Source: an uncultured Tateyamaria sp. (GTDB taxonomy: Bacteria; Pseudomonadota; Alphaproteobacteria; Rhodobacterales; Rhodobacteraceae). Taken from it: a stretch of DNA of 64,000 nucleotides. The notes under the pieces were generated by a model that had not been told where the DNA came from, ran no database searches, and saw only the letters and a program-made list of their open reading frames with translations. Each line of letters begins with the position of its first letter. Within the stretch, counting starts at the first letter, position 1. The DNA lies in contig NZ_CANNDN010000001.1 of the NCBI RefSeq assembly GCF_947503465.1, positions 2,067,501-2,131,500 of the forward strand. Direction: 5' to 3'. Of this stretch, positions 8,148-37,883 are shown in pieces. Both the position numbers and the translations under genes were made by a program.

Positions 8148-10763
8148 TTAGTGGATCACCGCATCATCCGGTCGTGGTCGGTTCGACGCGCTGATGCGAT
8201 CCCCAATGACCAATCCTTCGCTGCCGGCTGACACCTCGACGGTGTCACCGTCCTTGATGTCTCCGGCCAGCAGCATCTCGGCCAACGGGTTTTGCAGGGC
8301 CGATTGAATCACGCGCTTCAAGGGTCGCGCGCCAAACACAGGATCATACCCCTCGTCCGCCAGCCACGTCCGCGCGCCTTCATCCAGCGACAGTGTGATC
8401 TTCCGGGCGGCCAACCGCTTCAGCAAACGCGCCATCTGGATATCAACGATCCCGTCCATGTCATCACGGGCCAGCCGGTCAAAGATGATCGTTTCGTCCA
8501 GGCGGTTCAGGAACTCGGGCCGGAAATGGGCCCGCACCGCATCCATCACGTCGCGCCGCGCCTGGCTGGCATCCGCCCCGTCGGGCAACTGGCTCAGCGC
8601 CTGCGCACCCAGGTTCGACGTCAGGATGATCAGCGTCTGCTTGAAGTCGACGGTACGGCCCTGACCATCGGTCAGCACCCCGTCATCCAGAACCTGAAGC
8701 AGCACGTTGAACACATCCGGGTGCGCCTTCTCGACTTCATCAAACAGGACAACCTGGTATGGACGCCGCCGCACGGCTTCGGTCAGCACGCCGCCCTCGT
8801 CATACCCGACATAACCCGGCGGGGCCCCGATCAGCCGCGCCACGGCATGCTTCTCCATGAATTCCGACATGTCGACGCGAACCATCGCGCTGTCATCGTC
8901 GAACAGGAACTCGGCCACCGCCTTGGTCAACTCGGTCTTGCCGACACCGGTGGGCCCAAGAAAAAGGAACGATCCAAGCGGTCGGTTCTCGTCATTCAGG
9001 CCCGCCCGCGCCCGGCGCACGGCGTTTGCAACAGCACGCACAGCGTTGTCTTGGCCGATCACCCGGTTGTGCAACTGCTCTTCCATGCGCAACAGTTTCT
9101 CGCGCTCACCTTCCAGCATCTTGGACGTGGGGATACCGGTCCACCGCTCGACAACGCTGGCGATCTGCTCGGGGCGGACAGCCTCGGCCACCATCGCATC
9201 CGTCTCGGCACCTTCGGCTTCGGCCAGCTTGCGCTCAAGATCGGGGATCACGCCATAGGACAGCTCGCCCGCCTTGCCGAGGTTGCCCTCGCGCTTGGCG
9301 ATATCCAGCGCGGCCCGCGCGTGGTCCAACTGTTCTTTCAGGTCGCGCGCCGACGCCAGCTTGTCCCGCTCGCCCTGCCACTGCGCCGTCATCTCTGCGC
9401 TGCGGTCAGCCAGGTCCGCCAGATCCTTCTCAAGTGTCTCCAACCGGTCCTTCGACGCCTGATCATCTTCCAGGCGCAGCGCCTCCACCTCGATCTGCAT
9501 TTGCAGGATCTGACGGTCAAGCGCATCCAGTTCCTCGGGCTTGGAATCCACCTCCATCCGCAACCGGCTTGCGGCCTCGTCCACAAGGTCGATGGCTTTG
9601 TCCGGCAGGAAACGATCCGTGATATAGCGATGCGACAGGGTCGCGGCGGTCACAAGCGCGCTGTCCGAGATCCGTACACCATGGTGCAGTTCGTACTTTT
9701 CCTTGATCCCCCGCAGGATGCTGATCGTGTCCTCGACCGTCGGCTCGACAATCATCACGGGCTGAAACCGGCGGGCCAGTGCCGCGTCTTTCTCTACATA
9801 TTTGCGGTACTCATCCAGGGTCGTCGCGCCGACACAGTGCAACTCACCCCGTGCAAGCGCCGGCTTGATCAGGTTCGCCGCATCCATGGCACCGTCCGAT
9901 TTGCCCGCGCCCACCAGCGTGTGCATCTCGTCAATGAACAGGATGATCTCGCCCGCGGCCTCCGTGACCTCGGTCAACACAGCCTTCAGCCGTTCCTCGA
10001 ACTCACCACGATACTTCGCACCCGCAATCAACGCGCCCATGTCCAAGGCCAGGAGACGCTTGTTGCGCAACGACTCGGGCACGTCACCATTCACGATGCG
10101 CAGCGCCAATCCCTCGGCAATGGCGGTCTTGCCCACTCCCGGCTCACCAATCAGCACAGGATTGTTCTTGGTCCGGCGGCTCAGCACCTGCATGGCGCGG
10201 CGTATTTCCTCGTCCCGGCCAATGATGGGGTCGATCTTGCCCGCCTCGGCCCGCTCGGTCAGGTCCATGGCGTATTTCTTTAGCGCGTCATAGCCTTCCT
10301 CGGCACTCGCACTGTCAGCCGTACGGCCCTTCCGAATATCGTTGATGGCCGAATTCAGCGCCTGCGGGTTCACCTTGCCCGCGGCCAGCGCATCCTTGGC
10401 CCCGGACTTCACCATACCCAGCGCCATCAGCACCCGTTCGACCGGGACAAAGCTGTCACCCGCCTTCTTGGCCAGCGCCTCGGCCTCGGCCAGCACCTTG
10501 GCGGTTGCGTTGTCCAGATACACCTGCGCGGCGTCACCCGTCACCTTTGGCATCTTGGCCAGCACCTGGTCCACATGGGTCAGCACACGCGCCGGATCGC
10601 CACCCGCACGCGTGATCAGGTTGGATGCGAGGCCCTGCTCGTCATCCATCAACGCTTTCAGCACATGTTCGGGGGCAAGCCGCTGGTGACTGTCGCGGGT
10701 TGCAATGGTCTGCGCCGCCTGAACAAAGCCGCGCGACCGCTCCGTGAACTTCGACAAGTCCAT
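8148..10763 (-). CDS. clpB: ATP-dependent chaperone ClpB
   Basis: ClpB is the cytosolic Hsp100 disaggregase that works with DnaK to rescue aggregated proteins after heat stress. The 871-residue length is normal. The N domain (1-150) is followed by AAA+ module 1 with Walker [10 protein letters not shown] near residue 207, the long coiled-coil middle domain (about 410-530) and AAA+ module 2 with Walker [10 protein letters not shown] near residue 602. The start is supported by GGAGAG 8 bases before the ATG. A sigma-32-like promoter lies upstream. Confidence 0.98.
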
Positions 10764-23682: not shown

Positions 23683-24039
23683 ATGCCTTACATCGACGGA
23701 TTCATGGCCCCCGTCCCGACGAAAGACCGGGACCGCTTTGTCACCTGGCTCAGGGATCAGCATGCCGTTTTCAAGGAATACGGGGCCGACGTAATCGTGG
23801 ACGCGTGGGAAGACGACGTGCCTGAGGGCGAAGTGACGTCCATGCACAGGGCCGTCGCCTTGAAAGAGGGCGAAAGTGTCTCGCTTGGGTGGATCATGTG
23901 GCCCGACAAGGCGACACGCGACGCCGCGTGGGCCAAGGTCATGGACGATCCGCGTATGACACCGGAGCAAAACCCGATGCCCTTTGACGGCAAGCGCCTG
24001 ATCTTTGGCGGCTTCGCCCCGGTGCTGATAACCGGCTAG
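23683..24039 (+). CDS. DUF1428 family protein
   Basis: The 118-residue protein begins MPYIDGFMAPVP and contains WIMWPDKATRDAAWAKVM and PMPFDGKRLIFGGF, the hallmarks of DUF1428 (YbaA-like), a ferredoxin-fold dimeric family with unknown activity. GTGGGAGAAACACAC precedes the ATG. Its stop overlaps the stop region of the convergent ligase gene by 4 bases. Confidence 0.9.
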   Translation: MPYIDGFMAPVPTKDRDRFVTWLRDQHAVFKEYGADVIVDAWEDDVPEGEVTSMHRAVALKEGESVSLGWIMWPDKATRDAAWAKVMDDPRMTPEQNPMPFDGKRLIFGGFAPVLITG

Positions 24040-25250
24040 TCGTAGCTGCGCTGGTCCTCGATGACGAGCCCGTCCCGGGGCAAGGTGCCCGGCGCATGGA
24101 TTTCAAGGGTGCCCTTCAGTTTGAGCGTATCCACGACGCTTTGTGCATAGGCATCCGGCGCAGTGTTCGGGCTTTCGATCTGCACCGTCATCGCGTCCTG
24201 TTCGCCAACCCGTGTGGCGATGACACGCGCGCGTGTCACCTCTTCATGTTTGCCCACAAGGGCCGCGACCTGTTCGGGGCGCACGAACATGCCCTTGATC
24301 TTGGTGGTCTGGTCTGCGCGGCCCATCCAGCCCTTGATCCGCATGTTGGTCCGACCACACGGGCTGTGGCCGTCCAACACGGCGCTCATGTCGCCGGTGG
24401 CAAAGCGGATCAGCGGGTAGTCGGGGTTCAGCGAGGTCACAACCACTTCACCGACCTCGCCCGGGGCCACGGGGGTGCCGGTGCCGGGGGTCACGATTTC
24501 GACCACAACCCCTTCGTCCACGATCATGCCTTCAAGCGCAGAGGATTCGTAGGCGATGTTGCCCAGGTCCGCCGTGGCATAGGATTGCATACAGGTGATA
24601 CCGCGATCCTTGTAATGCTGGCGCAGGGAGGGGAAAAGCGCGCCGCCGCCAACAGCGGCCTTGGTAATCCCCAGCGTGACACCCATCTCGTCCGCCTTGT
24701 CGAGGATGACTTTCAGGTAATCCGGCGTACCGGCATAGGCCGTGGTGCCCACGTCGCGCGCGGCCGTGACCTGCAATTCGGTCTGCCCGGTGCCAGCGGG
24801 CAGCACCCGGGCCCCCACGGCGCGCGCCCCATTTTCAAAGATCATGCCCGCAGGCGTCAGGTGGTAGCCAAAGCAGTTCTGCACGATGTCACCTGGCCCG
24901 AAACCTGCCGCGTGCAGGAAGCGGCCCATGCGCCACCAGTCATGGCTGATCCCGCCGGGTTCATAGATGGGACCGGGGGACTGAAAGACATGGGCGATGT
25001 TCGACACCGGGATGCCACCAAAGGGCGGCTTTTCGGCCTGCCATTTCGCCAATTCGGATTTGCGCAACACAGGAAGATGCGCCAGATCATCCAGGTATTT
25101 CAGCGTGCCGATGTCGGGCAGGCAACTGCCCGCCGCCTCGGCCACGCGGGCAAGCTGGGCATTCACGGCCTCCAACTGCGCCGCGTGCCGCGCGTCGGAC
25201 GAGCGGGTTTCCAGATCGTCGTAATACACCTTGTCGAGCATCTCTCTCAT
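24036..25250 (-). CDS. Phenylacetate-CoA ligase-like AMP-forming enzyme with altered P-loop
   Basis: The 404-residue protein belongs to the PaaK branch of the acyl-adenylate family and is slightly short. Conserved parts are NCFGYHLTPAG, the YATADLGNIAYE segment, RFATGDM and GRADQTTKIKGMFVRP. Where PaaK normally has the ATP-phosphate loop SSGTTGxP, this protein reads SPGPIYEPGG. The change could lower or alter adenylation. The gene is last in the liv-type cluster and its ATG overlaps the stop of the DUF6958 gene by 4 bases. The natural acid is unknown; an aromatic acid is the usual guess. Confidence 0.85.
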   Translation of the reverse strand: MREMLDKVYYDDLETRSSDARHAAQLEAVNAQLARVAEAAGSCLPDIGTLKYLDDLAHLPVLRKSELAKWQAEKPPFGGIPVSNIAHVFQSPGPIYEPGGISHDWWRMGRFLHAAGFGPGDIVQNCFGYHLTPAGMIFENGARAVGARVLPAGTGQTELQVTAARDVGTTAYAGTPDYLKVILDKADEMGVTLGITKAAVGGGALFPSLRQHYKDRGITCMQSYATADLGNIAYESSALEGMIVDEGVVVEIVTPGTGTPVAPGEVGEVVVTSLNPDYPLIRFATGDMSAVLDGHSPCGRTNMRIKGWMGRADQTTKIKGMFVRPEQVAALVGKHEEVTRARVIATRVGEQDAMTVQIESPNTAPDAYAQSVVDTLKLKGTLEIHAPGTLPRDGLVIEDQRSYD

Positions 25251-25534
25251 ACCGCCCTGATCTGTTGCGGACCCTTGACAGCGAGGCGTTCAATTTCGCC
25301 CCGCACTTCCAGTTCCAGTTTCACCGTGACCACGTGCCAACCCAGCTTGCCAAGGTCGGCAAGGGTCTGGTCATCCAGTCGGGACTGCACGGCCGCGTTC
25401 AGATCCTTGTAAAGGATCGGACCGTTTTCCAGCGCCCCAAGGATCGCCGCGCGCACCGCGTCAAACTTCCACACCGGGATGTTGGTGACCCCATCGCGCC
25501 CTTCGGCGGGGGTGCGGCACGCGACCTTGTCCAT
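25247..25534 (-). CDS. Small DUF6958-like protein
   Basis: The 95-residue cytosolic protein has the layout of DUF6958: a winged-helix-like fold with KFDAVRAAIL, a middle LNAAVQSRL helix and a closing strand pair around LGWHVVTVKLELEVRGEI. No enzymatic motif is seen. It sits one base after the cupin stop and overlaps the ligase start by 4 bases, so it is tightly co-translated. A regulatory or accessory role to the ligase is an inference from this coupling. Confidence 0.65.
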   Translation of the reverse strand: MDKVACRTPAEGRDGVTNIPVWKFDAVRAAILGALENGPILYKDLNAAVQSRLDDQTLADLGKLGWHVVTVKLELEVRGEIERLAVKGPQQIRAV

Positions 25535-25535
25535 G

Positions 25536-25916
25536 TCAGTTGGCCAGGACCGTCAACGGTTCGCCCTTGCGCACGACAAAGGTGGTGATCGCCACCATCG
25601 GTGCGTCGCCCACATTGGTCAGACCGCCATGCACCTGCCCCTCGGGGAAGTAGAGCGGCGTGCCCACCGCAAACTCGACGATATTGCCGTTGGGCGCTTC
25701 GGCCCGCGCATCCGTGACCACCACCGTGTGTTCATCGCCCGGATGGGTGTGCAGCGGAATGGTGGCCCCGACCGGCACCGTCAGACGAAACACAACCACC
25801 TCCATCGTGTCCGAGCCCGGCACATCAACGCGCCGGATTTCTTCGCGCGCAATCTCCTGCGCCCAGGCGGTGCCCGCCATCAGCAAGGCGATGCCAGTGA
25901 ATACAAGTCGCTTCAT
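25536..25916 (-). CDS. Exported cupin-domain protein
   Basis: The 126-residue product has a signal peptide (about 1-19, ending AWA-Q) and one cupin barrel. The metal-binding motif 1 is partly visible as PLHTHPGDEHTVVV (two histidines and a glutamate), and motif 2 as FPEGQVHGGLTN. A periplasmic metal-binding or binding-protein accessory role is likely, but no reaction can be named. It lies between livF and the ligase genes and is read in the same direction. Confidence 0.82.
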   Translation of the reverse strand: MKRLVFTGIALLMAGTAWAQEIAREEIRRVDVPGSDTMEVVVFRLTVPVGATIPLHTHPGDEHTVVVTDARAEAPNGNIVEFAVGTPLYFPEGQVHGGLTNVGDAPMVAITTFVVRKGEPLTVLAN

Positions 25917-25928
25917 CTTCGAACTCCC

Positions 25929-26753
25929 TCAGCTCAGCCACCGTTTGCGGCGGCGATAGGACCGCACGTCGCGAAAGGACTTGCGCCCTTCATCCGACAT
26001 GCCAAGGTAGAATTCCTTCACGTCCGGGTTCTCGCGCAACTCGGCCGCTGGGCCGTCCATCACCACGCGCCCGCTTTCGAGGATATAGCCGTAATGGGCA
26101 AAGCGCAGGGCGACATTGGTGTTCTGCTCGGCCAGCAGGAACGTCACGCCCTCATTCTCGTTCACCGACTTCACGATACCAAAGATCTGTTCGACCAGCT
26201 GTGGCGCCAGCCCCATCGACGGCTCGTCCAGCAGGATGGTTTCGGGCCGGGACATCAGCGCGCGGCCAATGGCCGTCATCTGCTGTTCGCCCCCCGAGGT
26301 GTACCCCGCCTGAGACTTCCGGCGTTCGCGCAAACGCGGGAAATAATCGTACACCATCTCAAGATCGGCAGCGACAGCCCCTTTGCCATCGCTGCGGGTA
26401 TAGGCCCCGGTCAGCAGGTTCTCCTCCACGGTCAGGTGCTCGAAACAGTGGCGCCCTTCCATCACCTGCACCACGCCGCGCTTGACCAGGTCGGCGGGGT
26501 CCTTTTCGGCTGTGTTCTCGCCGTTGTGCAGGATCGACCCCTTGGTCACCTCGCCGCGCTCGCTTGCCAACAGGCCCGAGATTGCTTTCAACGTCGTTGT
26601 CTTGCCCGCGCCATTGCCCCCCAGCAGGGCCGTGATGCCCCCTTTGGGCACCTTCAGCGACACGCCTTTCAGCACAAGGATCACGTGGTTGTAGATCACC
26701 TCGATATTGTTGACGTCCAGAACGGTGTCAGTCTGCGTCTCGGCATCCAGCAT
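25929..26753 (-). CDS. livF: ABC transporter ATP-binding protein, LivF-like
   Basis: This 274-residue ATPase is the LivF-type partner of a branched-chain amino acid/amide (HAAT) importer. Walker A GGNGAGKTT, the signature SGGEQQM and Walker B ILLDEPSMGL are all present. The C-terminus carries an extra basic tail (SYRRRKRW). In this gene context the importer more likely carries an aromatic or other carboxylate. Confidence 0.95.
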   Translation of the reverse strand: MLDAETQTDTVLDVNNIEVIYNHVILVLKGVSLKVPKGGITALLGGNGAGKTTTLKAISGLLASERGEVTKGSILHNGENTAEKDPADLVKRGVVQVMEGRHCFEHLTVEENLLTGAYTRSDGKGAVAADLEMVYDYFPRLRERRKSQAGYTSGGEQQMTAIGRALMSRPETILLDEPSMGLAPQLVEQIFGIVKSVNENEGVTFLLAEQNTNVALRFAHYGYILESGRVVMDGPAAELRENPDVKEFYLGMSDEGRKSFRDVRSYRRRKRWLS

Positions 26754-26824: not shown

Positions 26825-28099
26825 TCAGCAGCCCGCTTCGATGCCGTTTTCGCTGGCATAGGCGGCGCTGTCTTCGTCGATCAGGGGCTGGATCACGTCC
26901 ATGTCCGTTTCCGCGAATTCAGAGATCAGCGACCATGTGCCCGAGGACGCATCCCACTGGGTCATGCCGATCAGGCCCGGACCCCCGTGGTTTTCGCACG
27001 ACACGCTAAAGGACGGACCAAAGCCGGGCAGACCAAGGTCGGTCATCTTGGCTTCGGTGATCTCCAGCGCTTCCATGCCGTCGCGCATCATGGCCGGTGT
27101 GATGTCGGCCACGCCGTGGATGTCCTGTGCGGTCTTGGCAGCCTCGGCCGCCAGCATCGCGGCATAAAGACCGCGGTTATACAGCACCGTACCGATCTGG
27201 TCGCCGGCACCTGCGGCGAGGCCCTTGTCAACCACATGCTCCTGGATGTCGTCGAAGATGGGGAAGTCGCTGCCCACACCGTGGAATGTCAGCGCCTTGT
27301 AGCCATTGGCCGCGTCACCCGCGGGCAGCACGTCGTTTTCAGACCCCGACCACCAGATGCCGATGAAGTTTTCCATCGGATACCGGATGTTGGCTGCTTC
27401 CTGGATCGCCACCTGGTTCATCACACCCCAGCCATACATGATGACATTGTCGGGACGCTCACGCCGGATCTGCAGCCACTGCGACTTCTGCTCCTGACCG
27501 GGGTGATCCACGGCCACCAGCATCAGCTCGAACCCGTGCTTTTCCGACAGCTCTTCGAGCGTACGGATCGGTTCCTTGCCATAGGCGGAGTTGTGGTACA
27601 CGAGCGCGATCTTCTTGCCCGCGATGTCGCCCTGGCTCATCAGGTAGTTGATGGCGCCCGACGCCCCATTCCAGTAATTGGCGGGATAGTTGAACGTGTG
27701 GCTGAAGACCGAGCCATTGGCGGCGGATGTCCGGCCATAGCCCATGGTGTGCATGGGGATGTTGTCGGCGGTCGTCTTGGGGATCAGCTGGTAGGTGATG
27801 CCGGTCGACAGCGGCTGGTACACCAGTGACCCTTCGCCCTTGGTGGACTCGTAGCATTCCACACCCTTTTCGGTGTTGTAGCCCGTCTCGCATTCCAGAA
27901 CGCGTGTCGCCACGCCGCCGATACCACCGTCCCGCTCGTTCAGCAGGGTGAAATAGTCGGCATAGCCATCCGCAAAGGGGATGCCTCCGGCCGCATATGG
28001 GCCCGTGCGGTAGCTGAGCGACGGGAACACGAGGTCCGCCATCACGGGGCTTGCCGCCATCATGGTTGCGACGGCGTAGGTGCCTAGTTTCATCTTCAT
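26825..28099 (-). CDS. ABC transporter periplasmic substrate-binding protein, LivK-like
   Basis: The 424-residue protein has a signal peptide (about 1-21, ending VMA-D) and a type I periplasmic binding fold, as in LivJ/LivK and the amide-urea-aromatic family. Segments such as LSYRTGPYAAGG, NERDGGIGG and VYHNSAYGKEP are typical of the HAAT family. GGGAGGAAACACCG precedes the ATG. The ligand is unknown; its neighbours code for acyl-CoA ligases. Confidence 0.93.
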   Translation of the reverse strand: MKMKLGTYAVATMMAASPVMADLVFPSLSYRTGPYAAGGIPFADGYADYFTLLNERDGGIGGVATRVLECETGYNTEKGVECYESTKGEGSLVYQPLSTGITYQLIPKTTADNIPMHTMGYGRTSAANGSVFSHTFNYPANYWNGASGAINYLMSQGDIAGKKIALVYHNSAYGKEPIRTLEELSEKHGFELMLVAVDHPGQEQKSQWLQIRRERPDNVIMYGWGVMNQVAIQEAANIRYPMENFIGIWWSGSENDVLPAGDAANGYKALTFHGVGSDFPIFDDIQEHVVDKGLAAGAGDQIGTVLYNRGLYAAMLAAEAAKTAQDIHGVADITPAMMRDGMEALEITEAKMTDLGLPGFGPSFSVSCENHGGPGLIGMTQWDASSGTWSLISEFAETDMDVIQPLIDEDSAAYASENGIEAGC

Positions 28100-28198: not shown

Positions 28199-29275
28199 CT
28201 AATGCGGGAACGGCCACAATCTCAATTTCTCCTTGGCCACGCGCCACAGCTGCGCCAGCCCGTGTGGCTCCAGGATCAGGAACAGGATGATCAGGCCGCC
28301 CACGATCACAAGCTGGAAATGCGCCACGATGTCCGTGGGCCACCCCAACACGTCCACGCCCACGATCTTGAGGACAACAGGCAGCACCACAAGAAAGGCC
28401 GCGCCCGCGAAGGACCCGAAGATGGACCCAAGGCCGCCGATGATGATCATGAACAGCACAAGGAACGATTTGGTGATGCCGAACACCTCGCCCACCTCGA
28501 CCGCGCCCAGATAGACGGCAAAGAACAAGGCACCCGACACGCCGACAAAGAAGGACGACACGGCAAAGGCCGTAAGCTTCGCACGCAGCGGGTTCACCCC
28601 GATGATCTCGGCCGCAATGTCCATGTCGCGGATCGCCATCCACTCGCGCCCGATGGACCCGCGCGTCAGGTTGCGGGCCAGAATTGCGGCCCCCACGGTG
28701 AAGACCAGGCAGAACAGATAGGTGGCCCAGGCTTCGGTATTGGGGCCTGTCACTTCGATCCCGAACACGGCGCGCTCAGGTGCGTTGATCTGGCCCGAAG
28801 CCGAGTAGTTGTAGAACCACGACACCTTGTTGAAGAGCCACACCAGAAAGAATTGCGCGGCCAGCGTCGCCACGGCCAGATAGAACCCCTTGATGCGCAA
28901 GGACGGCAGGCCAAACAGCGTACCGACGACGGCCGTGATCCCACCCGCGAGGATCACATGGAAAAAGATGTTCACATCCGGAAAGGCCGTCATCAGCTTG
29001 TAACAGGCATAGGCCCCCACGGCCATGAACCCCCCGGTCCCAAGGCTGACCTGCCCGCAATATCCGGTCAGAATGTTCAGCCCGATGGCCGCGATGGCGT
29101 AGATCAGAAACGGCAGAAAGATCGAATTGACCAGATAATCCGTCATCACGAAGGGCATGACCAACAGGGCCACGGCCAGCACGACATAGTACCGATAACG
29201 GTCGAACCTGATCGGGAACGTCTGGCTATCCTGCGGATATGTCGTCGAAAAATCGCCCGCCTCACGATAGAACAT
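28199..29275 (-). CDS. livM: ABC transporter permease, LivM-like
   Basis: The 358-residue inner-membrane protein has about 9-10 helices and the LivM signature: NILTGYCGQVSLGTGGFMAVGAY in the first third and the cytosolic coupling loop REWMAIRDMDIAAEIIGVNP. It pairs with the LivH-like permease encoded upstream in the same cluster. GGAGCAAACTG precedes the ATG. Confidence 0.94.
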   Translation of the reverse strand: MFYREAGDFSTTYPQDSQTFPIRFDRYRYYVVLAVALLVMPFVMTDYLVNSIFLPFLIYAIAAIGLNILTGYCGQVSLGTGGFMAVGAYACYKLMTAFPDVNIFFHVILAGGITAVVGTLFGLPSLRIKGFYLAVATLAAQFFLVWLFNKVSWFYNYSASGQINAPERAVFGIEVTGPNTEAWATYLFCLVFTVGAAILARNLTRGSIGREWMAIRDMDIAAEIIGVNPLRAKLTAFAVSSFFVGVSGALFFAVYLGAVEVGEVFGITKSFLVLFMIIIGGLGSIFGSFAGAAFLVVLPVVLKIVGVDVLGWPTDIVAHFQLVIVGGLIILFLILEPHGLAQLWRVAKEKLRLWPFPH

Positions 29276-29794: not shown

Positions 29795-30826
29795 TCACAC
29801 ACGTTCAATGATCTTCTCCCCGAACAGGCCCTGCGGGCGGAACACGAGGAAGATCAGCGCCAGCACGTAGGCAAACCAGTTCTCGGTCGCGTTCATGGTA
29901 AAGCCGAACAGCGCCCCGGCAAGGTCGCCCGAGGACATGAAGAACTCGAACAGCTTCTCTCCGACACCGATGATCAGCCCGCCGACAATGGCGCCCGGGA
30001 TCGACGTGAACCCGCCCAGCATCAGCACCGGCAGGGCCTTGAGCGCGATCAGCGACAGCGAAAACTGCACGCCCGATTTCGCGCCCCACATGATGCCCGC
30101 GACCAGCGCCACGAAACCCGCCACCGACCACACCAGGATCCAGATATAGTTCAGCGACACACCCACGGACAACGCCGCCTGGTGGTCATCCGCCACGGCC
30201 CGCATCGCGCGCCCCTGCTTGGTGTATTGCGAAAAGATCACCAGCGCCGTCACCAACAAGATCGCGATGATCGTCGCCGTGATGTCCAGATTGTCGATGA
30301 AGAACCCGTAGCCAAACAGGTTGAACGTCGCCTCGTCGATGGCAAGGTTGATACCCTGCGGCAGGCACGTGCCCTCGGCCAGGCACACGTCCAGCTTCTT
30401 GATCTCGGACCCCCACATCAGGTCGGCCACGCCTTCCAGCAGATAGGCGAGCCCGATGGTCGCCATGAACAGGATGATCGGTTCTTGCCCCACCAGATGC
30501 TTGAAGATGAACCGCTGCACCATCCAGGCCAGCCCGATCATCACCACGACAGTCAACAGAATGGCGAGGATCGAATGCACCTCCCACCCGAAATAGTGGA
30601 TATCAGTGCCAAAAATGGCGTTGATCAGGTGGGCAAAGGGCACCTGCCCGTTCTGGATGCCCACCAGCGTCATCGCGGCAAAGAGCGCCATGACCCCTTG
30701 CGCAAAGTTGAAGATACCGGACGCCTTGAAGATCAGGACAAAACCCAGCGCCACAAGGGCATAAAGCACCCCGGCCATGAGGCCGTTCAGGAACACTTCG
30801 CTGGCATAGATCAGTTGTTCAGACAT
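29795..30826 (-). CDS. livH: ABC transporter permease, LivH-like
   Basis: The 343-residue permease has about 8 helices and the LivH features ALVALGFVLIFKASGIFNFAQG near the N-terminus and GRAMRAVADDHQAALSVGV in the coupling loop. The ATG at 30826 is preferred, with GGGAGG about 8 bases upstream; a TTG lies just before it. It heads the part of the cluster that continues, after the nested plus-strand gene, with livM, livK and livF. Confidence 0.94.
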   Translation of the reverse strand: MSEQLIYASEVFLNGLMAGVLYALVALGFVLIFKASGIFNFAQGVMALFAAMTLVGIQNGQVPFAHLINAIFGTDIHYFGWEVHSILAILLTVVVMIGLAWMVQRFIFKHLVGQEPIILFMATIGLAYLLEGVADLMWGSEIKKLDVCLAEGTCLPQGINLAIDEATFNLFGYGFFIDNLDITATIIAILLVTALVIFSQYTKQGRAMRAVADDHQAALSVGVSLNYIWILVWSVAGFVALVAGIMWGAKSGVQFSLSLIALKALPVLMLGGFTSIPGAIVGGLIIGVGEKLFEFFMSSGDLAGALFGFTMNATENWFAYVLALIFLVFRPQGLFGEKIIERV

Positions 30827-30881
30827 CAAAGTGCCTCCCTTTGGCGTTTCGGCCGATCAGAACTCTGGAACACAGGCCGTA

Positions 30882-31469: not shown

Positions 31470-31938
31470 GATCCGTCTCCAACACGCGGTAGACGACACC
31501 CTGCCCGTCAATGGACGCCTCGACATGCACCTGCGGTTCGATCCATGCGTCACTGACCAACATGCCCGCCTCCGGCACATAGATCTGGCGCCGCGTGACA
31601 TCGGCCACCCAATCCAGATAGGCAACGTCCAGCATGTCCGCACCAAGCTCATGCACGGCACAGGCCCGGTTGCCGTCGTCGGGGGCCGCATCCAGCACCA
31701 GCAGCAGGCCGTCCACCGCGGCAAAGACCAGTTCGGCGTCGCGCATCTGGTCCGCAAGCTGCTGCGCCAAGCCGTCCGTCACCGGCTCTGTCAGGTGTTC
31801 ATATGGGTCGAGGCACCGCGCCTGAAACATGTTCCACGCCGCCCCGGCCTGCGCGGCACCGGCAAGCGCAAGGCACACAAGCGGTGCACAGGCTGTGCAC
31901 AGGGTGTGTACGCGTTGTGCATGCCGGTTTTCAGTCAT
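31459..31938 (-). CDS. Exported hypothetical protein overlapping livG
   Basis: The 159-residue product begins with a long signal peptide (about 1-33, ending AQA-G), and the mature part starts AAWNMFQARCLDPYE. The ATG at 31938 overlaps the livG stop by 8 bases, and the 3' end overlaps the next exported protein gene. No family was recognised. It may be a pseudo-paralogue or partner of its downstream neighbour, as both are periplasmic and of similar size. Confidence 0.65.
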   Translation of the reverse strand: MTENRHAQRVHTLCTACAPLVCLALAGAAQAGAAWNMFQARCLDPYEHLTEPVTDGLAQQLADQMRDAELVFAAVDGLLLVLDAAPDDGNRACAVHELGADMLDVAYLDWVADVTRRQIYVPEAGMLVSDAWIEPQVHVEASIDGQGVVYRVLETDLES

Positions 31939-32749
31939 GGGACACCCCAAGATAGGCGTCGATCACATCCTGATTGTTGCGCACCTCGTCCGGGCTGCCA
32001 TCACCGATCTTCTTGCCGTAATCCATCACCACGACGCGGTCCGACAGGTCCATCACGACGCCCATGTCATGTTCGATCAGGGCGATGGTGGTGCCAAATT
32101 CGTCATTCACATCAAGGATAAAGCGGCTCATGTCCTCTTTTTCCTCGACGTTCATCCCCGCCATGGGTTCGTCCAACAGCAAGAGCGACGGCTCGGCCGC
32201 CAGCGCGCGCGCCAGTTCGACCCGCTTTTTCAAACCATAGGGCAACCGCGCGACAGGCGTTTTGCGGATGGCCTGGATCTCCAGGAAATCAATAATCTTT
32301 TCAGCAACTTCCCGGTTGGCCGTCTCTTCGGCCTCGGCCTTGCCCTTCCAGATCGCCTGACCAAACAGTCCCGTCTTCATATGGGTCAGCCGCCCGGTCA
32401 TCACGTTGTCCAGAACGGTCATGCCTTCGAAAAGGGCGATGTTCTGGAACGTCCGGGCAATCCCCTGCCGCGCGACTTCAAACGGCTTCATCGGTGGGCG
32501 CGGCGCCCCCTTGTAGTACACCTGCCCCTCCTGCGGGATGTAAAAGCCGGAAATCACATTCAGCATCGACGACTTGCCAGCGCCGTTCGGGCCGATAATC
32601 GCCCGGATCTCGCCCTCGCGAATATCGAACGAGATATCCTTGATCGCCTCAACCCCACCAAATCGCAGGGTAATATTGCGCATCTCCATGACAACGCCCC
32701 CGATCTTGCGACCGTCGGCTGTGACGTATCCTTCGGCCTGATCAAGCAT
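31931..32749 (-). CDS. livG: ABC transporter ATP-binding protein, LivG-like
   Basis: The 272-residue ATPase has Walker A GPNGAGKSS, a degenerate signature region (ARLPYGLKKRVELARAL, where LSGG is normally expected) and Walker B LLLLDEPMAGMN. It completes the liv-type importer with LivF, LivH, LivM and the binding protein. GGAGG 6 bases before ATG 32749 fixes the start. Confidence 0.94.
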   Translation of the reverse strand: MLDQAEGYVTADGRKIGGVVMEMRNITLRFGGVEAIKDISFDIREGEIRAIIGPNGAGKSSMLNVISGFYIPQEGQVYYKGAPRPPMKPFEVARQGIARTFQNIALFEGMTVLDNVMTGRLTHMKTGLFGQAIWKGKAEAEETANREVAEKIIDFLEIQAIRKTPVARLPYGLKKRVELARALAAEPSLLLLDEPMAGMNVEEKEDMSRFILDVNDEFGTTIALIEHDMGVVMDLSDRVVVMDYGKKIGDGSPDEVRNNQDVIDAYLGVSHD

Positions 32750-32831
32750 GGGCTGCCTCCATCGTCCGCGAGTTAAGCAGGACATTAACCATTTTCTGCG
32801 CAAGCTCGGGACACAACTCGGAGGGGTCCCA

Positions 32832-33130: not shown

Positions 33131-35140
33131 TCATTCTGCCGCCAGCTTTTGCGCAACCGCGGACGTGACCGCGGACCGAATGTCCAGCGTCGCCGAAATC
33201 GACCCCTTGCGCCCATCCTCATAGGTCACCTCGGTCTTGGTCGAGACCTCGGAAGATCCATCATACAGCGCCGCGATGATGTCTGCATATTTCTCCTCGA
33301 TGATGCGGCGGCGCACCTTCCGCGTCCGGGTCAATTCGCCATCATCGGCATCCAGTTCCTTGTGCAGGACGACAAAGCGGTGCACCTGGCAGCCCGACAG
33401 CATCTCGTCCTCGGACACTGACCTGTTCACCTCTTCCACATGCTCGGTGATCGTCGACAACACCTGCGGATGCTGCGCCAGTTCCTGGTACGACCCGTAC
33501 CCGATATTGTTCCGCTCGGCCCAGTTGCCGACCGCTGTCAGGTCGATGTTGATGAACGCCGTGCATTCCTCACGCCCGTTGCCAAAGACCACGGCCTCCA
33601 GGATGTTGGGGAAAAACTTTAGCTTGTTCTCAACATATTTGGGCGCAAACAGCGCCCCCGACGCCATCTGCCCCACATCCTTGGCCCGGTCGATGATCCG
33701 CAGATGCCCGGTGTCTTCCTCGATGAACCCGGCATCCCCGGTGGCGACCCAACCGTCGGCATCCTTGGTCCCGGCGGTGCTTTCGGGGTTCTTGTAATAT
33801 TCCACGAACACACCGGGCGAACGATAGAACACCTCGCCATTGGGCTCGATCTTCAACTCGACCCCGGGGCATTTCACGCCCACGGTGTCGCTGCGCACCT
33901 CGCCATCGGGCTGCGCGGTGATGAACACCGTGGCTTCGGTCTGGCCGTAAAGCTGTTTCAGATTTATGCCCAATGACCGATAGAAATCAAAGATTTCCGG
34001 TCCAATCGCCTCACCCGCCGTATACCCCACGCGCACGCGGCTGAAGCCAAGCGTGTTCTTCAGCGGGCCATAGACCATCAACTCGCCCAGGGCATATTTC
34101 AACCGGTCCCCAAGGCCGACGGATTTGCCATCCAGGATCGCCGGACCAACCTTGCGCGCATGATCCATGAAATAGCGGAACATCTTCTGCTTGAAGACCC
34201 CCGCGTCCTCCATCCGGATCATCACGTTTGTAAGCTGCATCTCGAACACACGCGGCGGGGCAAAATAATAGGTCGGCCCGATCTCGCGTAGATCGACATG
34301 CATTGTGTCGGCACTTTCGGGGCAGTTGGTGCAAAAGCCCGACCACAGCGCCTGACCAACCGAAAAGATGAAATCGCCCACCCACGCCATGGGCAGATAG
34401 GCCAGAATGTCATCTGACTGCCGCAACCCGTCAAATTCCGAAGACGATTTCGACGTCTCGATCACATTGCGGTTCGACAGCACCACGCCCTTGGGTTTGC
34501 CCGTCGTCCCCGATGTGTAAAGCATCACGCATGTGCTGTCGTAATCCAGCGCTGCAATGCGTTTTGCCATCTCGGGCGCCAGTTCGTCGCGCTTGGCCCG
34601 GCCTGCATCCTGAACGTGACTGTACTGATGCAGTTTCGAATGATCGTATTTTCGCAATCCGCGCGGATCGAGATAGATCATCTGCTCGAAGTCAGGCAGT
34701 TGCCCCTGCACTTCGATCACCTTGTCGACCTGTTCCTGATCCCCCGCGATGACAAAGCGCGCACCGGAATGATCAAGTGTATAGGCCATCTCTTCGGCTG
34801 CCGCGTCCTGATAAAGCGGCACCGGGATTGCACCTGCCATTTGCGCGGACATCATCGACCAATACAGGTACGGGCGATTGCGCCCGATCACCGCGATATG
34901 GTCACCGGGTTTGACGCCCAGATCTATCAGGCCAAGCGCCAGCGCCTCGACCTCTTCCAGCGTTTCCGTCCAGGTCCAGCTTTGCCAGATCCCGAATTCC
35001 TTTTCGCGATAGGCCGGGGCCGATCCAAATTCCCTGGCATTTCGGTGTAACAGCGCCGGAACGGACACAAGCCCGTGCGCGCCTTCAGGCGACTTCGTCA
35101 CGAATTTTCCTCCCGAACGCGCCCCGTATCCCGAGGTCAC
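33131..35140 (-). CDS. Long-chain acyl-CoA synthetase-like AMP-forming ligase
   Basis: The 669-residue protein is a full-length FadD15-type ligase. The ATP-phosphate loop YTSGTTGKPKG, the YGQTEATVF motif, the TGDAGFIEE motif and the closing RIIDRAKD segment are all intact. It forms acyl-AMP and then acyl-CoA. It is the first gene of the liv-type cluster, so it probably activates the imported acid; chain length cannot be read from the sequence. Confidence 0.92.
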   Translation of the reverse strand: MTSGYGARSGGKFVTKSPEGAHGLVSVPALLHRNAREFGSAPAYREKEFGIWQSWTWTETLEEVEALALGLIDLGVKPGDHIAVIGRNRPYLYWSMMSAQMAGAIPVPLYQDAAAEEMAYTLDHSGARFVIAGDQEQVDKVIEVQGQLPDFEQMIYLDPRGLRKYDHSKLHQYSHVQDAGRAKRDELAPEMAKRIAALDYDSTCVMLYTSGTTGKPKGVVLSNRNVIETSKSSSEFDGLRQSDDILAYLPMAWVGDFIFSVGQALWSGFCTNCPESADTMHVDLREIGPTYYFAPPRVFEMQLTNVMIRMEDAGVFKQKMFRYFMDHARKVGPAILDGKSVGLGDRLKYALGELMVYGPLKNTLGFSRVRVGYTAGEAIGPEIFDFYRSLGINLKQLYGQTEATVFITAQPDGEVRSDTVGVKCPGVELKIEPNGEVFYRSPGVFVEYYKNPESTAGTKDADGWVATGDAGFIEEDTGHLRIIDRAKDVGQMASGALFAPKYVENKLKFFPNILEAVVFGNGREECTAFINIDLTAVGNWAERNNIGYGSYQELAQHPQVLSTITEHVEEVNRSVSEDEMLSGCQVHRFVVLHKELDADDGELTRTRKVRRRIIEEKYADIIAALYDGSSEVSTKTEVTYEDGRKGSISATLDIRSAVTSAVAQKLAAE

Positions 35141-35292: not shown

Positions 35293-37185
35293 ATGGCACA
35301 GGATCACACGGCATCCCTGACGGCTTCGGGCCTGAATCTGATCGCGCAGGCACTGACGATCTATGACCGCGATCTGCGTCTTGCCGTGTGCAACGCCCCC
35401 TTTCAGCAGATGTTCGACCTGCCCGACGCGCTGGTCACGCCCGGATCGACCTTTCGCGAAACGATCACCCATCTGGCACGGCGGGGCGAATACGGTCCGA
35501 TCGACGATCTCGACACATTCGTGCAGGAACGTGTCGACCAGGCGCTTGCGTTTGAACCGCATTACATGGAACGCACCCGCGCCAATGGCCGCACCATCAG
35601 CGTCGAAGGTTCGCCCCTCCCGCAGGGAGGCTGGGTCACCGTTTACACGGACATCTCGCACACCAAGGCGCAAGAGGCGCTGCTGCGCGCCCGCGCCACG
35701 GAACTGAGCGATCAGGTTCTGCAACATACCGAAGCGTTGAGTTCGACAAACCGCCAGCTTGCCGCAACCGTATCCGCCCTCGAAGAGGCCAAGCGTCAAC
35801 TGACCGAAACAGAGGCACGCACCCGTCTTACGACCGAGATGATGCCCGCCCATATCGCCCACGTGGATGCATCGGGCCACTACACATATTCCAACAGACG
35901 GCTCAGCACGGTGATTCCGAACCGCCCGTCAGAGATTGTGGGCGAACATATCTCTGACGCCTTGGGTGCCTTTGCCTATGGCCGTATCGCGTCCAACCTT
36001 GCACGGGCGTATCAGGGTGAGGCATCGGTTTTCGAATTCACCGACGAGGCCAGCGCCAGACGCATACGTGTGTCGTTCACGCCCGAAGCGTCTGGCGGCG
36101 TCTACATCCTGTCCATGGATATCACCGAGGAAACCCAGGCCCGCGTCGCCCTGCAGCAAAACCGTCGGCGCACGCTGGCGGCGCAGATGACGTCCGGCAT
36201 GGCACACGACTTTTCCAACTTGCTGACAATCATTCTTGGCCTGCAATCCAAACTTTCGCGTATGGACGATCTGCCCCAGGGCGCGACCGACCTGATCGAC
36301 GGCACCCTGTCCGCCGCCCGGCGGGGCGGAGAGCTGTTGAACGCGATCGCCGACATGACCGCAGGTCGCGCCATGCGCCCTGCGGCCACGGACATCGAAA
36401 CCTTGCTGGGCGACGTCACGACCATGGCTCAATCCACCCTGCCGCCGGGCCTGACCCTCAGCACATTCACCACGGTGACAGGCCCCCACATGCTTGATCC
36501 CGGCCTGGTCAAGGACAGCCTGTTGAACCTTGTCCTGAACGCCCGCGACGCCTGTGGGACGGCCGGCCAGATCACACTCACGGCCCGTCCCGTCCACGAC
36601 ACCTGGCTCGAGTTTACCGTCACCGACAGCGGCCCCGGCTTTTCGAACGAGGCGCTCGAACACGGCTTTGATCCCTTCTTTACCACCAAAGGGTCCGAAG
36701 GGTCGGGTATGGGCCTGCCGATGGTCTATGACATGACCAAGCGCGCGGGCGGCGACCTGAAGTTGGGCAACGGAGATGTGGGCGCACAGGTCCGCCTGCG
36801 CCTACCGCTGCGCCCCGCCCCGCAACTGGCCGGCGCGCTTGTCCTGCTGGTCGAGGATGACCCCGACTTGCGCCAACACTACCGCGACCTCTTGATGAGC
36901 ATGGGACACGCCGTCATCGAGGCGGCAGGTGTGGACGAAGCGGTCGCGCTGACTGCTGACCTTCCCGACATCGGCCTTGTCCTGTCGGACATCAACCTCG
37001 GCTCCGGCACACGCACCGGCATCGACCTGGCCACGCAGTTGAACGGCACCCTGCCCGTGATCCTGATGACCTCCCTCTTGCCCAATGACCCAACCTTCCA
37101 GATGGCCACCCGCGCCGCGCCGGTCCTGCGCAAACCATTCGAAGCGTCCGACCTCGCGGCCCTCCTGCAGGCAGACGCCGCATGA
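35293..37185 (+). CDS. Hybrid sensor histidine kinase/response regulator with two PAS domains
   Basis: The 630-residue cytosolic protein has no membrane helix. PAS domain 1 (about 10-125) is joined by a coiled coil (about 130-180) to PAS domain 2 (about 190-285). The phospho-accepting histidine is His305 in MAHDFSNLL. The ATPase domain (about 345-510) shows NLVLNARDA and GSGMGLPM. A C-terminal receiver domain has the acceptor Asp566 in LSDINLG. It overlaps the response regulator by 4 bases (ATGA). The signal is unknown; PAS domains suggest redox, light or a small ligand. Confidence 0.93.
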   Translation: MAQDHTASLTASGLNLIAQALTIYDRDLRLAVCNAPFQQMFDLPDALVTPGSTFRETITHLARRGEYGPIDDLDTFVQERVDQALAFEPHYMERTRANGRTISVEGSPLPQGGWVTVYTDISHTKAQEALLRARATELSDQVLQHTEALSSTNRQLAATVSALEEAKRQLTETEARTRLTTEMMPAHIAHVDASGHYTYSNRRLSTVIPNRPSEIVGEHISDALGAFAYGRIASNLARAYQGEASVFEFTDEASARRIRVSFTPEASGGVYILSMDITEETQARVALQQNRRRTLAAQMTSGMAHDFSNLLTIILGLQSKLSRMDDLPQGATDLIDGTLSAARRGGELLNAIADMTAGRAMRPAATDIETLLGDVTTMAQSTLPPGLTLSTFTTVTGPHMLDPGLVKDSLLNLVLNARDACGTAGQITLTARPVHDTWLEFTVTDSGPGFSNEALEHGFDPFFTTKGSEGSGMGLPMVYDMTKRAGGDLKLGNGDVGAQVRLRLPLRPAPQLAGALVLLVEDDPDLRQHYRDLLMSMGHAVIEAAGVDEAVALTADLPDIGLVLSDINLGSGTRTGIDLATQLNGTLPVILMTSLLPNDPTFQMATRAAPVLRKPFEASDLAALLQADAA

Positions 37186-37883
37186 CCGGAGCCCTTGTCA
37201 CCATCCTTGATGACGAACCGGCGATCCGCAGGATTCTGGCCGACGCGCTGGAAGAGGCGGGGTTCCGCACCCTCTCCTTCTCGCGTGCCTCTGCGTTCGA
37301 AGCGGCGCTGAAAACCCACAAACCCGACGTCTGCCTCGTGGATCTCGGTCTGCCCGACACCGATGGCCTGACGCTTGTGCACAAGCTGGCGTTGGAACAA
37401 GGCGCTGCCGTCATCATCATCTCGGGACGTGCCCAGGTCCAGGACCGGGTCACGGGCCTCGAACTCGGGGCCGACGACTACATCATCAAACCCTTCGACC
37501 CGGCCGAGGTGGTGGCGCGCATTCGCGTCCGCCTGCGCACACCCAAGTCTACGGCGCAAACCGGTCAGATCGCCCATTTCAACGGCTGGACCGCTTCGTT
37601 CGACAGCTACACATTGACCGACGACCAAGGCTCGGAAACCCCCTTCTCCCACGCAGAAGGCGAAGTGCTGCGTCTCTTCCTCGACGCGCCCAAACGACTG
37701 ATCAGCCGGGCCCAAATGCAGGAAATGCTGGGCGGCGGCGCAGGCGACAGCTTTGACCGGGCCATGGACGTGCGCATCAGCCGACTGCGTACCAAGCTGC
37801 GCGAAGACCCCAAGAACCCCCGCCTGATCAAGACGATCTACGGCGCGGGCTACATCTTTCTGGGCGATGTGCAGTGGACATGA
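37182..37883 (+). CDS. OmpR/PhoB-type response regulator
   Basis: The 233-residue protein has an N-terminal receiver domain with the phospho-acceptor Asp54 in CLVDLGLPD and a Lys in IIKPFDP. The C-terminal winged-helix DNA-binding domain (about 135-230) ends LIKTIYGAGYIF, the classic OmpR-family recognition region. It is translationally coupled to the hybrid kinase. The target genes are not known; the WGR gene just downstream may be one. Confidence 0.95.
   Translation: MTGALVTILDDEPAIRRILADALEEAGFRTLSFSRASAFEAALKTHKPDVCLVDLGLPDTDGLTLVHKLALEQGAAVIIISGRAQVQDRVTGLELGADDYIIKPFDPAEVVARIRVRLRTPKSTAQTGQIAHFNGWTASFDSYTLTDDQGSETPFSHAEGEVLRLFLDAPKRLISRAQMQEMLGGGAGDSFDRAMDVRISRLRTKLREDPKNPRLIKTIYGAGYIFLGDVQWT

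Follow-up and report, generated by a model that had tools for sequence, protein, structure and literature searches.

What does a protein of the phenylacetate-coenzyme A (CoA) ligase (PaaK) family do when the loop that normally holds ATP has been replaced? The question is raised by a gene in the window, the whole 64,000-nucleotide stretch analyzed here, from an uncultured Tateyamaria sp. (contig NZ_CANNDN010000001.1, positions 2,067,501 to 2,131,500). We use the label PaaK* for its product, a 404-aa PaaK-like protein with a Ser-Pro-Gly (SPG) loop. PaaK* was confirmed to represent a conserved PaaK-fold subfamily without the canonical adenylation motifs, a larger result than the single changed loop noticed in an earlier sequence-only reading of this DNA. 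We give even chances to the proposal that PaaK* would no longer carry out ordinary ATP-dependent adenylation and would partner a complete acyl-CoA synthetase (ACS) of its operon, acting on acyl-AMP, AMP, or CoA.

Altered and retained adenylation motifs

The positions on which the comparison is based are as follows.

24036-25250 (-): PaaK*, last gene of the operon (open reading frame (ORF), profile searches, alignment, and AlphaFold2 (AF2) model)
24957-24980 (-): substituted P-loop (A3), residues 91-98, SPGPIYEP, against SSGTTG in ordinary PaaK
24861-24863 (-): His130 in the A4 region, a subfamily-specific invariant (His in 146/146, Gly in 28/28 ordinary PaaKs)
24567-24581 (-): A5 motif YATAD, residues 224-228, replacing YGLSE
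24390-24398 (-): A7 motif TGD, residues 285-287, with the ribose-binding Asp retained
24291-24323 (-): A8 motif GRADQTTKIKG, residues 310-320, with Arg311, Asp313, and Gly320 retained and Gln314 and Lys317 as new invariants (alignment)
24066-24074 (-): Asp-Gly-Leu, residues 393-395, at the C-terminal place of the A10 Gly-Lys, without Lys in the window (alignment)

A total of 161 loci were fetched, comprising 30 from a class-level search (including the window's own), 80 from Rhodobacteraceae, the best 30 of a phylum search, 20 hand-chosen regions, and L002. The subfamily set drawn from them holds 146 distinct PaaK* proteins, including that of the window; it is weighted to close relatives, and many further matches lie outside it, as do L002 (an ordinary PaaK), duplicates, L194-L197, L202-L205, and the loci of the window's genus. 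The control set consisted of 30 ordinary PaaK-family proteins from the same class, 29 of which cover the loop and one of which is a fragment, and 28 of them were used in the motif-by-motif comparison after the fragment (L190) and a divergent protein (L191) had been dropped.

Alignment to ordinary PaaK bore out the claim of the sequence-only reading that SPGPIYEPGG stands where SSGTTGxP is expected, and the survey of this loop among homologues, an idea of the same reading, found S91, P92, and G93 invariant in all 146 subfamily proteins. Pro, which has no amide hydrogen, has replaced the first Thr in 141 of the 146; in place of the second Thr (residue 95), every protein carries Ile or Leu, and the second Gly has become Tyr or Phe in 141. 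The control PaaKs, in contrast, read SSG(T/S)TG in 28 of 29 readable cases and TTGTTG in one. The SPG loop was also found in four further plasmid copies outside the set, and in PaaK* from each of the 20 genomes compared in the window's genus, whether or not a DUF6958 gene was present. A local oddity or a sequencing error is ruled out by these counts, and the change is more than chance because the loop is fixed across the compared subfamily. In PaaK1, the ATP phosphates are bound by backbone amides of the loop and by Ser94, Thr96, and Thr97 (PMC8388817). The same review lists point mutations of this loop in a studied ligase, which lowered activity 4- to 2000-fold or abolished it.

The changes at A5 and A10 add to the sequence-only reading, which had named the loop only. 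In A5, Ser is replaced by Ala (residue 227) throughout the subfamily and Glu by Asp (residue 228) in 139/146, including the window, with Glu kept in seven; Tyr224 is retained in 143 and is Phe in three. For A10, MAFFT places a gap at the generic Gly-Lys position in 146/146 PaaK* proteins, and the profile-profile alignment of hhalign pairs residue 395 with the generic Lys instead, so that PaaK* of the window shows a gap or a non-Lys residue under either alignment. At residue 395, Lys stands in 89 proteins, Leu in 39, Ile in 11, Val in 5, and Arg in 2, and Lys is absent there in 20/20 genomes of the genus. On a quickly built tree (108 rows: 66 from the class and phylum, 36 of the 80 Rhodobacteraceae, two sister proteins, and four ordinary PaaKs, with the trait columns excluded), parsimony required at least 14 changes at this residue, at least nine of them forced by well-supported branches.

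Other parts of the active site are unchanged. G286, D287, R311, D313, and G320 are retained in 146/146, and new invariants have appeared at H130, P133, W308, A312, Q314, K317, F322, D393, and G394, of which W308, A312, Q314, K317, and F322 lie within A8. PMC6122825, which surveyed 374 class I enzymes, reports Glu, Gly, Asp, Arg, and Lys as the five residues that never vary, and describes the A10 Lys as important in adenylation and solvent-facing in the thioester state. Of four mapped class I invariants, PaaK* retains Asp287 and Arg311 on the ribose side, and is without the Glu and the Lys. The suggestion of the sequence-only reading that the protein might bind its ligand without adenylating it, or use a different chemistry, is strengthened to the extent that three changed adenylation motifs beside a preserved nucleoside site can indicate function.

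The same residues could be read differently. PaaK* might be an active, self-sufficient CoA ligase with a rebuilt ATP site, in which the roles of the P-loop, Glu, and A10 Lys have been taken over by the SPG loop, by Asp228, and by a new basic residue (e.g., Lys317). Strong conservation, the new invariants H130, P133, Q314, and K317, and the retention of D287 and R311 would fit such a site, whereas the switching of residue 395 among K, L, I, V, and R across the tree does not, and mutations at these motifs lower the activity of studied enzymes (PMC8388817 and PMC6122825). We regard this rebuilt ligase as rather unlikely.

Distribution, relationships, and selection

PaaK* scores below the cut-offs of both relevant profiles, with 108.7 bits against 646.3 for TIGR02155 (phenylacetate-CoA ligase) and 23.3 bits against a gathering cut-off of 29.9 for Pfam AMP-binding (PF00501); its nearest structure by sequence is 4r1l (phmmer, E 6e-34). 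The class-level survey, in which 289 genomes of the Alphaproteobacteria were searched for PaaK*, ACS, and DUF6958, returned two sets of PaaK-like matches, one at 44-74% identity and more than about 250 bits and the other, ordinary PaaK, near 30% identity. Some fragments and a single match (37% identity, 195 bits) fell between the two, and the quick tree recovered the PaaK* subfamily as a clade separate from ordinary PaaK. PaaK* was present in 84/289 genomes, so that about three in ten of the sampled class genomes carry it. No account of the subfamily was found in the open-licence literature searched. Among plasmid records (58 matched), 20 of the 30 listed bear the label 'AMP-binding protein' and one 'putative phenylacetate-CoA ligase'; if PaaK* does not adenylate, ligase labels on it are wrong.

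Selection on PaaK* is purifying, with a dN/dS of 0.06-0.16 in 18 of 19 pairs within the genus and saturation in the remaining pair. These values disfavour a pseudogene. Several catalytic motifs have been lost, and one relative (L203 in genome G035; 34% identity) is truncated to 309 aa, lacks the SPG loop, and is perhaps a decayed copy. A decaying ligase relic would nevertheless be hard to reconcile with the dN/dS, with 69 invariant residues in a 28-row alignment, and with the same operon place being kept throughout the class and also in further classes of the phylum; we consider this explanation extremely improbable.

The genome of the window also encodes an ordinary PaaK (G000:C1:2347184-2348416) that exceeds the TIGR02155 cut-off with 660.3 bits. 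A heterodimer of PaaK* with ordinary PaaK was considered and is disfavoured as a general rule by eleven genomes in which no PaaK-like match besides PaaK* was found at E 1e-30 among the best eight first-look candidates (G015, G036, G056, G074, G096, G109, G112, G128, G135, G164, and G186), some of these genomes being incomplete (67-84%).

A transporter operon with a complete acyl-CoA synthetase

PaaK* closes an operon whose other main members are listed below; the assignment of the two permeases as LivM and LivH is our own.

33131-35140 (-): complete ACS with canonical motifs, FadD11/long-chain-like (profile and motif)
31931-32803 (-): LivG-type ABC ATPase (sequence match)
29795-30829 (-): branched-chain-type permease, LivH (profile match)
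28199-29275 (-): branched-chain-type permease, LivM (profile match)
26825-28099 (-): periplasmic binding protein, Peripla_BP_6 (profile match)
25929-26753 (-): LivF-type ABC ATPase (profile match)

Conservation of this arrangement was examined in the 80 Rhodobacteraceae loci and in 20 distant loci. All seven parts (ACS, LivG, LivH, LivM, binding protein, LivF, and PaaK*) were found in 75/80 Rhodobacteraceae loci, the other five lying on short contigs, and in 15 of the 20 distant loci at E 1e-5 (16 at E 1e-4). LivF lies on the same strand within 2 kb of PaaK* in all 80 Rhodobacteraceae loci and within 300 bases in 60 of them, and the gap is likewise at most 300 bases in 13 of the 18 distant loci that have LivF. 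In three distant loci PaaK* is detached, with an ACS match on the same contig roughly 13, 26, and 190 kb away.

The motifs of the ACS itself are intact. That of the window reads TSGTTGKPKG, YGQTEA, TGD, and TRKVRR, and among 93 ACS proteins compared (from 92 of the 100 loci plus the window) the loop starts with TSGTT in 86/86 readable cases, six of them TSGTTS. The A5 motif YGxTE was present in 87/87 readable proteins and TGD in 83/87, and the Lys of TRxKV(R/K)R, taken as the A10 Lys, in all 87.

Among the matches listed for the 289 class genomes, with only ACS matches at E 1e-100 or better counted and kinship ignored, PaaK* occurred in 84, ACS in 83, and both in 81. In the same terms, an ACS match accompanied 81 of the 84 genomes with PaaK* against two of the 205 without it. 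The two genes lie within 12 kb of each other in 59 of these 81 genomes, farther apart on one contig in two, and on different contigs in 20; of the three genomes with PaaK* only, one has it on a 6.3-kb contig. The conserved operon and this co-occurrence strengthen the proposal of the sequence-only reading that the activity could come from the complete second ligase. They also count against the rebuilt ligase considered above, as a complete ligase is nearly always present and could make a second activating enzyme superfluous.

Predicted structure and related systems

The AF2 model of PaaK*, built from a 54-row alignment, shows the PaaK fold over its full length with a mean predicted local distance difference test score (pLDDT) of 82.1. 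In VIA comparisons it aligned over most of its length with 4r1l_C (Z 34.3, root-mean-square deviation (rmsd) 4.2, 395 residues), PaaK2 2y4o_A (Z 33.8, rmsd 4.6, 390 residues), and 2-hydroxyisobutyryl-CoA ligase (HCL) in the thioester state, 6he0 (Z 32.2, rmsd 4.1, 401 residues). Alignments were shorter with PaaK1-ATP (2y27_B, 309 residues), PaaK1-adenylate (2y4n_B, 316), and post-adenylation HCL (6hdw, 318). The model thus resembles the thioester-forming arrangement of 6he0, which is weak support.

Several known systems are close to PaaK*. With PaaK1 and PaaK2 of Burkholderia cenocepacia (2y27, 2y4n, and 2y4o) it has in common the whole fold, the Asp at the AMP ribose, and the A8 Arg. Unlike these proteins and TIGR02155, it is without SSGTTG and the A10 Gly-Lys, has Asp for Glu and Ala for Ser in A5, and sits in a transporter operon. 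BT_0428 of Bacteroides thetaiotaomicron (4r1l and 4r1m), a putative acyl-CoA ligase, is the best match by both sequence and fold and shares a C-G-R-T stretch with PaaK*, but has the SSGTTG loop that PaaK* lacks. HCL (6hdw and 6he0) resembles PaaK* in its PaaK-type fold, and two plasmid loci of PaaK* also adjoin an acyl-CoA mutase. It differs in having been crystallized with its adenylate and with CoA, according to the entry titles, and the identity is 22-24%. EhpF (3hgv, 3hgu, and 3l2k) forms the next tier by fold, the only basis on which it was compared (Z 18.7, rmsd 3.4, 277 residues). It belongs to a different pathway and is not known to have the C-terminal domain, which is present in PaaK*. 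A title cited in PMC3175449 calls EhpF an atypical member of the adenylating superfamily. Compared with LivFGHM-type transporters accompanied by an acyl-CoA synthetase, the operon here has the transporter parts and the ACS, and the PaaK* gene is additional.

Plasmid loci, substrate hints, and a sister branch

On two plasmids, pXAUT01 of Xanthobacter autotrophicus Py2 (L196) and pTHAF8_b of Roseovarius sp. THAF8 (L197), the operon with PaaK* adjoins genes for a TetR regulator, a B12-binding subunit, an acyl-CoA mutase, and a MeaB-type GTPase. Xaut_5043/5044 are presumably a pivalyl-CoA mutase, for which a literature search gave no confirmation. On Azospirillum plasmids, the operon is followed by genes for isovaleryl-CoA dehydrogenase, a carboxylase, and HMG-CoA lyase. 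Such acid-catabolic neighbours on the Xanthobacter and Azospirillum plasmids are a point in favour of PaaK* as an active ligase in its own right. Twelve of these catabolic proteins were searched for in 100 loci (L032-L111 and L142-L161, up to about 10 kb on each side); the full set was found in none of them, and a match in five. Because only five loci gave a match, the catabolic neighbours are a weak pointer to the substrate, and they offer a faint hint that the imported acid is a branched short acid, such as pivalate.

A sister branch, at 34-37% identity to PaaK*, comprises L205 (Roseovarius indicus pRIdsm_01, 9004-10200) and L202 (genome G265). In both, the loop is SPGPIFEP, the sequence YATADLG is present, and Lys is missing from the C-terminal place. 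L205 lies on a plasmid typed as conjugative, next to genes for a CaiB CoA-transferase, MaoC, a thiolase, an acyl-CoA dehydrogenase, and a TRAP small permease, and its annotated stretch holds neither a LivFGHM operon nor another AMP-binding ligase. At L202, none of the other components of the window's operon was found. The loop is therefore not tied to the operon.

Proposed function of PaaK*

From its motifs, PaaK* probably does not adenylate by itself. The elements that bind the AMP moiety of a ligand are retained, as is the A8 loop, which moves into the active site once the enzyme adopts its thioester-forming conformation. Those that hold the beta and gamma phosphates, magnesium, and the carboxylate/alpha-phosphate during adenylation have been lost or changed. 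The complete ACS of the operon would then perform the ATP step, and PaaK* would accept acyl-AMP (or bind AMP and CoA, or acyl-CoA) and run the thioester half-reaction or its reverse. That its chemistry is a thioester half-reaction, in either direction, is a guess that we tentatively place ahead of pure binding. A more specific version, in which PaaK* is a widespread 'half-ligase' that has given up adenylation and takes acyl-AMP from the operon's ACS, so that activation of the imported acid is split between two adenylate-family proteins behind one ABC transporter, is doubtful. If PaaK* does not adenylate, it would provide a natural case of one ANL half-reaction retained without the other, and would give a clue to the imports of these transporter operons.

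Alternatively, PaaK* could be a non-catalytic pseudo-ligase that purely binds its ligand (acyl-CoA, acyl-AMP, or AMP), acting as a sensor through which the ACS or the transporter is controlled. Altered adenylation motifs beside retained binding residues would suit a sensor, as would the place of the gene after LivF, at most 300 bases away in most Rhodobacteraceae and distant loci. A mere sensor, however, need not retain the invariant Arg, Asp, and Gly320 of A8, and we judge this role unlikely.

A number of observations count against the loss of adenylation and the partnership with the ACS. The loss is deduced from motifs. Within the loop itself, S91 and G93 (146/146) and P98 (134/146) persist; the majority of members (89/146) have Lys at residue 395; and Asp is able to bind magnesium in place of Glu. 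The sister clade shares the loop without LivFGHM or ACS alongside, and the ACS link is thus not universal for the loop. Members of 20 of the 81 PaaK*-ACS pairs are on different contigs, the association being uncorrected for kinship and based on the E 1e-100 threshold alone. In the AF2 model the loop region is of low confidence (pLDDT about 65), and post-adenylation HCL 6hdx, with 342 aligned residues, falls between the long and short alignments. The arrangement that aligns over long stretches is also compatible with adenylation, because 2y4o carries phenylacetyl adenylate according to its entry title. In addition, AF2, which was run on PaaK* alone among PaaK proteins, may favour one conformation for all of them.

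The DUF6958 protein

The gene directly before PaaK* encodes a small protein, and a cupin gene separates it from LivF.

25247-25534 (-): DUF6958 protein, 95 aa, predicted winged helix, a genus-level accessory gene with a 4-base overlap with PaaK* (profile and AF2)
25536-25916 (-): small cupin with a signal-like start, between LivF and DUF6958 (cupin match in 6/80 related loci)

The protein scores 78.8 bits against the gathering cut-off of 27 for DUF6958 (PF22278), and its reading frame overlaps that of PaaK* in ATGA, in agreement with the 4-base overlap previously noted. The further idea that it is a partner of PaaK* found no support as a general one. The family occurs in two of the 289 class genomes, in the second of which (G252) the contig that carries it is not that of PaaK*. 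Within the window's genus, for which 20 genomes were compared, PaaK* is present in all 20 and DUF6958 in 15, directly before PaaK* in 14 (nine of them with the same end-to-start overlap) and 0.75 kb upstream in one; no DUF6958 match was found in the other five. It lies directly beside PaaK* in one of the 80 Rhodobacteraceae loci (L032, Tateyamaria omphalii, 92% identical), and a homologue is located 6-7 kb downstream, not adjacent, in two more (L040 and L058). In none of the 20 distant loci was it directly beside PaaK*.

The overlap in the window and the frequent adjacency, often overlapping, in the genus would fit a dedicated partner that is needed to complete PaaK* or to switch it on. On the other side, DUF6958 is not adjacent in 79/80 Rhodobacteraceae and 20/20 distant loci, no match was found in five of 20 genus and 287 of 289 class genomes, and the SPG loop is identical with or without it. 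The predicted winged helix makes a DNA-binding or regulatory role equally likely, and we consider a dedicated partner very improbable. Since adjacency is seen only in the window's genus and Tateyamaria omphalii, DUF6958 is no general partner of PaaK* and looks like a lineage-level accessory or regulator. Its AF2 model has a pLDDT of 89.6; Foldseek returned no match at E 0.001 or better, and the best structural match was to cullin winged-helix domains (Z 11.0, rmsd 2.5, 75 residues). Therefore, only a winged helix is claimed.

Other neighbouring genes

Five other conserved ORF clusters were found near the operon, in 36, 36, 26, 20, and 18 of the 80 Rhodobacteraceae loci, in a clustering that is blurred by shadow ORFs in GC-rich DNA. 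Judged by one representative each, they correspond to a Y-family DNA polymerase, an N-formylglutamate amidohydrolase, an OMP decarboxylase-family protein, a peptidoglycan-binding/caspase-domain protein, and an ABC permease. None of these has an evident connection with the operon. A two-component system lies upstream of the ACS.

35293-37883 (+): divergent PAS hybrid histidine kinase and OmpR-type response regulator (position)

The kinase was matched in none of 15 distant loci and in 51 of the 65 Rhodobacteraceae loci with room upstream of the ACS. Judging from their position, the kinase and the response regulator are probable regulators of the operon.

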